Source of the DNA: Pedobacter sp. AK013
GTDB taxonomy: Bacteria; Bacteroidota; Bacteroidia; Sphingobacteriales; Sphingobacteriaceae
NCBI RefSeq assembly: GCF_014205835.1
Contig: NZ_JACHCQ010000003.1
Span: forward strand, 186,001 to 250,000
Direction: 5' to 3'
DNA: 64,000 nt
Numbering within the stretch: the stretch's first letter is position 1; the number at the start of each line of letters is the position of its first letter. Below, piece after piece: positions 10,697-14,243 of this stretch. A program made the translations under genes and the position numbers. The notes beneath the pieces were generated by a model. That model worked only from the letters and a program-made list of their open reading frames with translations, was not told the DNA's origin and searched no databases.

Positions 10697-11215
10697 TTAG
10701 GCAGCCAAACCAGATTTATAATTTTTAAGCATCTTTTTCAGAAGACCTCTTGCTACGTGTATTTTGGTTTTTACGGTACCTAGCGGGATATCGAGCTCGG
10801 CAGCAATTTCATGATATTTATAACCTTCAAAGTAACGGCAAAAGCAAAAACGGCAATCTTCTGGTAAAGCATTTAATGATTTTTGGATGTCCTCCATCAT
10901 AAACTTAGCAGCACCGCCATTCGAAGATGCACTTGAAACCAGTTGGACAGATGTTAAATCTTCTTCCTGCTGGATTATTTCATTTTTGCGCTTTACTTTA
11001 TAGTAATGATTAAGAAAGGTATTTTTTAGGATGGTAAAAAGCCAGGCACGCACATTGCTTCCCATTTCAAAATTAGCAGAAAACCTAAACGCCTTCATAA
11101 AGGTATCTTGAACTAAATCGGCTGCATCGTCCTCATCACGCGTATATGCTAATGCACGATCGAAAAGTGGTTGTCTGTATTGGTATATGTCGCAATTAAA
11201 ATTTAATGTATCCAT
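10697..11215 (-). CDS. ECF-type RNA polymerase sigma factor
   Basis: 172 residues. Region 2 is visible as LFDRALAYTRDEDDAADLVQ with QDTFMKAFR (about residues 17-46), and the promoter -10 contacting part follows. Region 4 is LNALPEDCRFCFCRYFEGY and the helix-turn-helix YHEIAAELDIPLGTVKTKIH (about 113-155). No anti-sigma factor gene is next to it, which is unusual. It lies between two response regulators. In other bacteria some ECF factors are controlled by response-regulator-like anti-anti-sigma proteins, so a link is possible but only inferred. Confidence 0.92.
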   Translation of the reverse strand: MDTLNFNCDIYQYRQPLFDRALAYTRDEDDAADLVQDTFMKAFRFSANFEMGSNVRAWLFTILKNTFLNHYYKVKRKNEIIQQEEDLTSVQLVSSASSNGGAAKFMMEDIQKSLNALPEDCRFCFCRYFEGYKYHEIAAELDIPLGTVKTKIHVARGLLKKMLKNYKSGLAA

Positions 11216-11340
11216 GATTCGTTTTAGGGCTAATGTATATATTCAACAAGTAGCAGCGCCCAATGTTATTTGTAGAAATACGCGATTTTTTACGGTTTAT
11301 TTAAAACGCCCTAAAAAGCACCATAAAACGACCCAAAATA

Positions 11341-11991
11341 CTAGCTTACATAACCATTTCGCATGGCAAAACGAACTAAAGATGCAGAGTTTTTTGTGCC
11401 GGTTTTGCTAATTAAAGCTTCTCTTTGGCTCTCTACCGTTCGCCTGCTTAAGTACAATTTATCAGCTATTTCTTGATTCGTCAACCCATCAGCGATAAGT
11501 TTTAACACGTTAATTTCGCGCTCCGAAAAGTTAATTTCGGTATTCATTTTTCTTGAAAGCATATTCAACTGCGTATTAAAACGCTCTAAAATGGAAATGC
11601 ATAAATTAGAAGAAAGGTACCGTTTTCCCTTCATTACATGTTTTAAGCAAAACAGCAATTCATCTTCTTCAATATCCTTCGACAAGTAAGCAAAAGCTCC
11701 TGATATAAAGGAATTTGACGCATACTTTTCATCATCTAAAATAGATAAAACAACTACCTTTGTGGTGTATCCACGCTCTTTAATAGTGCTGGCTAAAGCT
11801 ACCCCATCAAGTCTTGGCATTACAATATCTGATAAAATGATATCAGCTTTTACTCCTTTTTCCAGAAGTTCCAAAACCGCTAAACCGTCTGATACTTCTG
11901 CAACAACTTTGATGCCTTCGTGTTTTTCTATAAGTGCTTTAAGTGAGCTCCGTATAATGTGGTGATCGTCGGCAAGAATAATGTTAATCAT
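11341..11991 (-). CDS. NarL/FixJ-family response regulator
   Basis: 216 residues: an N-terminal receiver with acidic pair DD at residues 8-9, phosphoacceptor Asp55 (ILSDIVMPRLDG) and a LuxR-type helix-turn-helix at about 153-216 (FSEREINVLKLIADGLTNQ and IADKLYLSRRTVESQRE). It is a DNA-binding transcription factor. The start is 40 bp after the stop of the histidine kinase on the same strand, so the two are probably an operon and a cognate pair. Confidence 0.93.
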   Translation of the reverse strand: MINIILADDHHIIRSSLKALIEKHEGIKVVAEVSDGLAVLELLEKGVKADIILSDIVMPRLDGVALASTIKERGYTTKVVVLSILDDEKYASNSFISGAFAYLSKDIEEDELLFCLKHVMKGKRYLSSNLCISILERFNTQLNMLSRKMNTEINFSEREINVLKLIADGLTNQEIADKLYLSRRTVESQREALISKTGTKNSASLVRFAMRNGYVS

Positions 11992-12031
11992 AATTCAAAT
12001 ATAACTTACGCCATTTTAAAATTAAAAACGG

Positions 12032-13111
12032 CTACTTAGGTAGCTCAATATAGAAGGTAGTTCCAACACCGATTTTGCTCTTAAACCAGATTTTTCCCCG
12101 ATGTAAGTCAACAATAGCTTTGATTATGCCCATACCAAACCCTCCCGATTCTTCCCCCTTAAGACCTGGCCTTAAGGTTTCGGGCAAATGGTTAAAAAGC
12201 CCCGCTTGTAGCTCATCCGGGATTCCGATCCCATTATCAGCCACTGTAATTAAAACGGTACTTTCATATTCTTCGGCATGTAAAGTAATATTTCCATAAT
12301 CGGCAGTAAATTTTATAGCGTTTGAGATCAGGTTATTTATAACCTGCAAAAACTTCATACTATCAAGGTGCAGATAAATATATTCAGCAGAGCTTGTAAA
12401 TTTAATGTTCTTCATTTTACCTAGCTTCGATCGTTTATAAAAACGAACCACATCTCTAAGCTCCCAAACCAAATCGGCTCGCTCCTTGCCAATTTCTATG
12501 ATTGATGATTTTAAGAACTCGCGGTTAATCATGCTGCGCACCAGAAGCAGATTACGTTCGCACATCTCCTTAATAAAGGCTAATGAATTCATCATTTGTT
12601 CATCGCCTGTTAGTGCTATACCATCTTCCATCGATGAAGCTGTTAATTTCATCATGCCAAGTGGTTCTTTTAAATCATGCGCCAATACCTCTAAGGTTAT
12701 GTTTTTCCGGGCGTTTATTTGTTCGATATGGATTTTATTATGGCGCATTACTGTAGTATCTTCTACCGTACCTACTAAATACTTTATTTCGCCATCTGCA
12801 ACTACAAAAACAATTACCCGCACATATTTCTCTCTATCAGCAAAGAGCAAACGGAATTCATATTTTTTCTCCGTACTATCTTCTTCAACACATTCTTGGT
12901 AACAGGATATTACATGTGTCAAATCTTCAGTGTGTACCTGCTCTGTCAGTAGCCGTGGATTGGCCATAATTTCATCTAGGCCGAGTTCCCAGATATTACT
13001 GATAGATTTATTGAGGTACGAGAAATTTTGCGCCGTGTAGTTAAAAATAAAATAACCATCAACAGAACGGTCGCCAAGATTACAAAAAAGTTCTTTATTC
13101 AATTCGACCAT
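12032..13111 (-). CDS. PAS-domain sensor histidine kinase
   Basis: 359 residues without membrane segments, so it senses a cytoplasmic signal. A PAS domain fills residues ~15-125 (ending KYLVGTVEDTTVMRHN). The H-box is EVLAHDLKEPLG with His145. The ATPase domain shows the N-box NNLISNAIKFT (about 259-269), the G1 box ADNGIGIPDE (291-300) and the G2 box GGFGMGI (323-329). A linker in the ATP lid, LPETLRPGLKGEES, is longer than usual. Probably phosphorylates the NarL-type regulator encoded immediately downstream. Confidence 0.93.
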   Translation of the reverse strand: MVELNKELFCNLGDRSVDGYFIFNYTAQNFSYLNKSISNIWELGLDEIMANPRLLTEQVHTEDLTHVISCYQECVEEDSTEKKYEFRLLFADREKYVRVIVFVVADGEIKYLVGTVEDTTVMRHNKIHIEQINARKNITLEVLAHDLKEPLGMMKLTASSMEDGIALTGDEQMMNSLAFIKEMCERNLLLVRSMINREFLKSSIIEIGKERADLVWELRDVVRFYKRSKLGKMKNIKFTSSAEYIYLHLDSMKFLQVINNLISNAIKFTADYGNITLHAEEYESTVLITVADNGIGIPDELQAGLFNHLPETLRPGLKGEESGGFGMGIIKAIVDLHRGKIWFKSKIGVGTTFYIELPK

Positions 13112-13356
13112 AACCTAATGTTTGATAATTTGCCATTAAACGATATAAATAATGAATCAGGAGTCAGATCTCAAACAGTATAGGAGTTAAAAAGTTTTAT
13201 ACAAAAAATGCATTTAACTATTTAGCATACGGGCATGTGGATAGCTGCTAATCTACTTTCAGAGATATTAACATTTTCCACACGATGTGCAAAATTATTT
13301 TGCGAATAAAAACCAACTATTGCCTAAATTGTTAAGCATAAAAGAAAGATAAAAAA

Positions 13357-13450
13357 GTCCTGTGAGCGGGAGATCCGCGGAGGGCAGGCACACCATAGAG
13401 AGGACAGTATCCCTCTTACCAATAGCCATCGCACAGGTGGCTATTTTGTT
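13357..13450. ncRNA. strongly structured intergenic element, candidate RNA of unknown class
   Basis: About 95 nt, far more GC-rich than its surroundings. Pairings seen (plus strand): GTCCT 13357-13361 with AGGAC 13401-13405; TGTG 13361-13364 with CACA 13389-13392; GCGG 13366-13369 with CCGC 13375-13378; AGAGG 13399-13403 with CCTCT 13412-13416; AATAGCCATC 13421-13430 with GGTGGCTATT 13436-13445, which is followed by TTGTT like a terminator. CCTGTG 13359-13364 can also pair with CACAGG 13432-13437, giving a pseudoknot or a switch. On the minus strand the outer stem is followed by six T residues, so orientation is open. I do not recognise a known RNA class. No ORF. Confidence 0.45.
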
Positions 13451-13544
13451 ATACGGGTTATTTTAAAAACAAATAACCAATTTAATGGGTATAGAAAAAT
13501 CTAACGGGATGATTTATCGTATTTATTTTAGTTAAAAATTAGGT

Positions 13545-13970
13545 TTATTGATATAAAAATGTTTCAGTTTTTTTATTTCTGAGTGGAAATTCCTTATTAA
13601 TTGGATCGAGCTCTTGATGCTCTTCTGTAATTAGAAGGTCGTTGTATTTTTCTAACAGATGAATATATTTATTCATCCAGAAATATACAGAATTATTATC
13701 CGAACCAATTTGCTTACCAGGATCTGCAGTTTGATTGACGGATTCGGGGTTATACTTAGGGAAAGCTTCCGGAAATGCCGAAGAAAGATCCTGACCTAAT
13801 AACTTGCCTATCTGCCAAATTACTTCATGCCCAATTCTATCTTGACCAAACCAGTTGTAAATTGTTCTGCGGCTTACATGAAGCTTCCTCGAAAGCTCAC
13901 TGATGCCCATGCGATCTCTGCGCACTAAGCGCTCAAGAATTTCTCCTTGTTTTAGTTGTTGTGTTGTCAT
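13545..13970 (-). CDS. helix-turn-helix DNA-binding protein
   Basis: 141 residues. The N-terminal part (about 5-60) is a helix-turn-helix: LERLVRRDRMGISELSRKL then HVSRRTIYNWFGQDRIG, similar to Cro/phage-regulator domains. The remainder, with YFWMNKYIHLLEKYNDLLI, is probably a helical oligomerisation segment. Such proteins are common regulators in this phylum and their targets are not known. Palindromes in the divergent spacer (14031-14043 and 14084-14097) could be its operator sites. Confidence 0.82.
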   Translation of the reverse strand: MTTQQLKQGEILERLVRRDRMGISELSRKLHVSRRTIYNWFGQDRIGHEVIWQIGKLLGQDLSSAFPEAFPKYNPESVNQTADPGKQIGSDNNSVYFWMNKYIHLLEKYNDLLITEEHQELDPINKEFPLRNKKTETFLYQ

Positions 13971-14097: not shown

Positions 14098-14243
14098 GAT
14101 ACATTAACGAATTATTGTAAACAACCTCGAAAACAGGCTATTTTAGCCTTATTTTTTTTAAGAAATAACGTATCACTTTAAATACAAATGTCACCAAAAT
14201 TGAAATTATTTTATTAAACTTCTATATTCATAATAAAAAAGAT

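Follow-up and report, generated by a model that had tools for sequence, protein, structure and literature searches.

Genomic Locus and Strand

The window is the whole 64,000-nucleotide stretch of Pedobacter sp. AK013 DNA that was analysed. It contains a small structured element between a sensor kinase gene (12032-13111) and a helix-turn-helix (HTH) gene (13545-13970). The kinase belongs to a cluster on the minus strand (10697-13111), made up of the sensor kinase, a LuxR-type response regulator, and an ECF sigma factor, that lies immediately upstream of the element. The kinase has a HATPase_c domain and a weak PAS domain, and it neighbors the element in some branches only. A second intrinsic-terminator-like hairpin, AGGCTATTTTAGCCT followed by T8, is found at 14135-14157 on the plus strand, in the divergent region between the HTH gene and a DUF1801 gene.

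The plus strand of 13340-13470 folds at -37.8 kcal/mol, compared to -27.2 +/- 3.5 kcal/mol for dinucleotide shuffles (z -3.06; none of the 200 shuffles was as stable). Folding of the minus strand over the same interval is unexceptional in the shuffle test (z -1.26). The plus strand is the correct strand of the RNA. Since a 44-nt core is conserved genus-wide, the structure is far beyond chance.

An initial annotation had placed a structured RNA at 13357-13450. The main hairpins and arms that it described are present in the window sequence. Its T-run after the last hairpin on the plus strand is the T-rich tail 3' of 13421-13445, and its six T at the end of the outer stem on the minus strand correspond to six A that precede the core on the plus strand. 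The element is real. The span, however, was too short: the gene is longer, with promoter-like sequence from 13286, a predicted start near 13337, and a 3' end near 13448.

Promoter-like Region and Predicted Transcript

Among 99 distinct promoters, the upstream region has a conserved promoter-like order: TGTG..AAAA..TTT, then AAACC, 10 nt, and TAnnTTGTTA. The most distal block, TGTGcAAAATTATTTT (13286-13300, +), was identified by column conservation in these homologous promoters and is likely an activator or UP-like element. The AAACC block (13310-13314, +) is located 10 nt upstream of the -7 box, and its A, A, A, and C are found in 88-92 of the 99 promoters. The -7 box, TAAATTGTTA (TAnnTTGTTA; 13325-13334, +), is represented by a TAnnTTGT-type box in 103 of 108 loci; this count is partly a product of the search pattern, and the subsequent TT and A columns are independent of it.

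The box does not have the usual TAnnTTTG spacing. The motif it resembles is instead TAnnTTGY, the "SM5" box of Flavobacterium psychrophilum. The SM5 box was ascribed by its authors to an alternative sigma factor (PMC9723704), and by analogy the Pedobacter box may also be read by one. A promoter regulon defined by AAACY-N9-11-TANNTTGTT was rejected, with 17 matches compared to 21 in the control.

The promoter box and the terminator together predict a small RNA of ~110 nt (13337-13448, +). The predicted start at ~13337 is set by the position of the box at -12 to -5, and the transcript would end at ~13448.

The Conserved Core and Its Alternative Pairings

The near-invariant core, AAAAAAGUCCUGUGARYGGGnnAUCCRYGnAGGGCAGGCAnnnCAUA, occupies 13351-13397 on the plus strand and was defined by two alignments and per-position identity. 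The consensus of aligned distinct homologues is AAAAGUCCUGUGARYGGGnnAUCCRYGnAGGGCAGGCAnnnCAUA. Most positions between -2 and +40 are 100% identical; outside this range, identity falls to 30-75%. The leader, linker, and terminator drift, whereas the core stays near-invariant.

Within the core, the inner hairpin P2 (RYGG:CCRY, loop GNNAU; 13366-13378, +) carries compensatory changes of the types GC/AU/GU and CG/UG/UA. There are 13 double-changed cells where 4.5 are expected, and none of 500 shuffles scored as high. Homologues with compensatory changes in related genomes, the test that the initial annotation had set, thus exist. The conserved part is a bulged hairpin, and these changes hold its inner stem. 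For the full structure in 26 close relatives, covariation was not above that of shuffles; the changes are too few to be informative.

The outer strands, GUCCUGUGA and GGGCAGGCA, show almost no variation. By computation, they have two possible pairing registers that exclude each other and differ little in energy. In conformer A, GUCCU (13357-13361) pairs with AGGGC (13381-13385) on the plus strand; this helix comes from the RNAalifold consensus and energies and has no covariation. In conformer B, CCUGU (13359-13363) pairs with GCAGG (13384-13388), also on the plus strand. The two are mutually exclusive because they use the same bases. In the window, the core has an energy of -13.9 kcal/mol as conformer A and -14.6 kcal/mol as conformer B extended by GU:AC.

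Conformer B is supported by compensatory changes in the diverged genome G064 (locus L158) and by its retention in a second copy in G007. In G064, G18-C41 is replaced by A-U and U19-G40 by G-C (alignment A1 numbering). These double changes are compensatory for B and break one pair of A in that register. The extended conformer B has 4 double-changed pairs compared to 1.2 expected. Comparison of the homologues therefore favors conformer B over A, on few independent events: one diverged genome and one degenerate paralogue.

A competing CCTGTG/CACAGG pairing between the 5' arm and the loop of the terminator hairpin had also been proposed. The two motifs are complementary in the window, but the pairing is kept in only 12 of 108 homologous loci. 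As CACAGG is missing from the terminator loop in the other 96, the complementarity is incidental, and a switch or pseudoknot of this kind is unsupported. What is conserved instead is the two-state pairing within the core, GUCCU:AGGGC versus CCUGU:GCAGG.

Linker and Terminator

The linker forms hairpin P3 (GAGAGG:CCUCUU; 13398-13417, +), whose structure is retained within the related clade while its sequence drifts. Across 35 distinct linkers, the mean folding energy is -3.9 kcal/mol, compared to -0.6 kcal/mol for shuffles.

The linker is followed by an intrinsic terminator, AATAGCCATCGCACAGGTGGCTATT plus a T tail (13421-13448, +), in which the hairpin (13421-13445) precedes the T-rich tail. 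By rule, a terminator is found in 84 of 108 loci, compared to 21 of 429 flanking control pieces (5%) and 2 of 108 shuffles. In many of the remaining loci, a hairpin is visible by eye at the terminator position. In three loci from a few Pedobacter species (L082, L099, and L316), the terminator hairpin itself includes AAAGUCCUG, a repeat of the core start.

Distribution

The RNA is restricted to Pedobacter, where it is found in about four fifths of the species and genomes. BLASTN against 146 Pedobacter genomes gave 119 matches. One of these (G120) sits within an open coding frame and was rejected as a homologue, leaving 118 of 146 genomes as carriers. Among genomes at least 90% complete, 111 of 133 are carriers. 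The window's genome has a single copy, and BLASTN found one copy per genome except in G134, which has two; these are on short contigs, share their flanks, and seem to be an assembly duplicate. A second, shortened and degenerate copy is present in G007 (L155:1073-1111, -), ~5.5 kb from the full copy. It has lost the inner stem and retains CCUGU-GAAGG-GCAGG, CACACCAUA, and a terminator.

Other genera were searched using a covariance model of the core and a degenerate pattern (up to 3 mismatches). No element was found in 401 family, 395 phylum, and 401 order genomes. More distant candidates in other genera and in RNA-less Pedobacter (covariance model E 0.003-1) were rejected, being mostly coding sequence or lacking promoter and terminator. 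Scanning 84,980 species genomes for the exact pattern returned 95 stretches. The record titles shown among them are Pedobacter, Sphingobacteriaceae or Sphingobacteriales MAGs, and one labelled Flavobacteriaceae; the last is apparently G121, which is assigned to Pedobacter in the genome collection.

A search of plasmids and phages gave no match, and the three matches on viral contigs seem to be coincidental similarities within coding sequence. A mobile element was rejected on the grounds of the single copy and the lack of plasmid or phage matches. About 21 well-assembled Pedobacter genomes do not have the RNA. One of them, G063, retains the neighboring kinase gene at 60% identity and has lost both the promoter and the RNA, so the absence there is real.

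Genomic Context

Forty-one wide loci (~9 kb on each side) contain 23 kinds of upstream and 27 kinds of downstream neighbor, and 70 of 107 loci have a convergent downstream gene. Varied neighbors and mostly convergent downstream genes are as expected for a trans-acting gene. In single-contig genomes, the RNA occurs in either orientation, at relative positions from about 0.2 to 0.97 along the contig. The varied neighbors and positions point to an independent gene rather than an operon leader or a fixed chromosomal site.

In 22 of the 41 wide loci, a sigma-like gene lies no more than 5 kb from the RNA. Three families are represented, two ECF-like and one RpoD-like. The genes fall in a few independent arrangements, and their proximity is possibly chance synteny.

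Comparison with Known RNA Families

No Rfam 15 family scores above its gathering threshold at the element, whether the window's copy or those of eight divergent homologous loci are scanned. The RNA thus has no match to a known class, as had been noted from the sequence. When the locus was scanned permissively against Rfam, nothing but sub-threshold resemblances to the terminator emerged. isrD (RF01388; 18.7 bits against a cut-off of 37, E 0.31) and psRNA14 (RF02351; 16.5 bits against a cut-off of 60, E 4.8) resemble the terminator hairpin alone. The one match in the whole window is Flavo-1 (RF01705) at 2182-2277 on the minus strand (54.8 bits against a cut-off of 42). Flavo-1 is likewise a structured RNA whose function is unknown; it occurs in the same genomes, with one copy in the window. 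It differs in sequence, folds into one long stem with internal loops, and scores as its own family.

FopS and GibS are Bacteroides sRNAs bound by the RRM-1 protein RbpB, and they repress mRNAs in trans near start codons (PMC11697453). FopS has an unpaired 5' seed (R1) and is present in up to 14 copies per genome (PMC11697453). Like these sRNAs, the Pedobacter RNA is an intergenic RNA of Bacteroidota, predicted at ~100 nt, with a conserved 5' part ahead of an intrinsic terminator, in a genome that does not encode Hfq. By description, it is set apart by its structured conserved hairpin, its single copy, and its occurrence in another class of the phylum.

Rfp18 of F. psychrophilum is a genus-wide conserved, strongly structured trans-acting sRNA that affects protease mRNAs (PMC9723704). 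Compared by description, both are genus-wide, strongly structured RNAs of environmental Bacteroidota, from different orders. Membership in Rfp18 or FopS/GibS is not established, as there is no Rfam match and the conserved part is a hairpin, not an open seed. The Pedobacter RNA is a new family that behaves like the genus-level sRNAs of other Bacteroidota and has an unusual two-state core.

Proposed Mode of Action

On balance, the ~110-nt RNA is likely a stand-alone, trans-acting regulator that works by base-pairing, a reading in which we place moderate confidence. We infer its transcription from sequence, and likewise its mode of action, targets, and trigger. The RNA would be transcribed from its own conserved promoter on the plus strand and end at the intrinsic terminator. 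Exchange between conformers A and B would open the invariant strands GUCCUGUGA and GGGCAGGCA. The opened strands could then base-pair in trans with one or a few conserved mRNAs, altering their translation or stability.

Base-pairing probably takes place without Hfq. Hfq (PF17209) is absent from the window's genome, and the control genomes gave matches. Action could be aided by the single RRM_1 protein of the genome, the class to which RbpB of Bacteroides belongs (PMC11697453). Pairing of CAUA with start codons was considered and rejected. There are 49 near-matches in the genome compared to 4 for the reversed control, yet most of the hits examined lie inside genes, on either strand, and none sets AUG at a gene start. 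A further 780 kb of Pedobacter DNA likewise had no excess.

The bases under the strongest conservation lie mainly in helices. A binding site for a protein or ligand would account for this at least as well as an antisense seed would, and for this reason the protein-binding and ligand-switch readings retain some weight. An RNA following 6S-like or CsrB-like logic would dock a dedicated protein on the invariant bulged hairpin and sequester it, scaffold it, or form a small housekeeping RNP, with no mRNA pairing. This is a credible though rather unlikely account. It agrees with the placing of the invariance, which falls on helix strands and bases of the internal loop and not on an open stretch, with the free drift of leader and linker, with one copy per genome, and with the one RRM_1 protein. 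A genus-restricted and occasionally lost RNA is at odds with an essential RNP, however, and one short site per RNA makes a poor sponge. A riboswitch-like two-state aptamer, acting as an attenuator or a stand-alone sensor with the A/B exchange as its switch, is improbable. Two nearly isoenergetic, exclusive pairings do coincide exactly at the invariant bases, and a terminator comes after the core. Against this, a riboswitch or attenuator has a fixed place upstream of a co-directional gene, and here the convergent downstream genes (70 of 107) and their 27 kinds in 41 loci leave no common regulated gene; the variable linker also separates the terminator hairpin from the core, and the two have no sequence in common. 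A related idea, doubtful and somewhat speculative, is that the core is a free-standing two-state switch in which a metabolite, protein, or target RNA drives GUCCU:AGGGC to CCUGU:GCAGG and back and thereby sets activity. If true, it would be a stand-alone switch RNA tied to no downstream gene, and we know of no described example in Pedobacter.

The remaining explanations fit the locus poorly. Regulation of either neighbor in cis, the sensor kinase or the HTH gene, had been suggested and is unsupported given how many kinds of neighbor the 41 wide loci have (23 upstream, 27 downstream). The kinase family is near the RNA in about half of the narrow loci and, in another arrangement, downstream in two more; a cis element of one neighbor is nonetheless very unlikely. 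The kinase is divergent here, placing the RNA outside its mRNA, G063 keeps its kinase without the RNA, and most other loci have unrelated neighbors. We give slightly less credence still to a passive DNA-level element, either a terminator that serves convergent genes in both directions or a chromosomal site, such as one for recombination or segregation, present in single copy. The six A before the core, which on the minus strand read as a run of T following the hairpin, and the one copy per chromosome would suit it, but terminators need no 40-nt invariant sequence or conserved promoter, and the scattered contig positions and orientations are unlike those of dif or ori. It is extremely improbable that the RNA is a short protein-coding gene or has a dual function. 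Stop codons interrupt frame 0 in every case and frame 2 in 47 of 98 distinct sequences. Frame 1 is open in 97 of 98, but in 74 no start codon yields an ORF across the core in this frame, changes fall at non-synonymous positions and follow stem pairing, and a 1-nt deletion shifts the frame in two genomes. No frame is consistently translatable in the distinct core sequences, which bears out the lack of coding potential reported initially.

Significance

To our knowledge, few descriptions exist of regulatory RNAs from environmental Bacteroidota. An RNA that four fifths of a soil and water genus carry in single copy, with its core near-invariant, offers a clean entry point. One carrier is a tractable species with a known genome, and RNA-less sister species are natural knock-outs. 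With the covariance model, the RNA can be annotated directly. The conservation of paired rather than unpaired bases is unusual and makes the working mode of this RNA a testable question.
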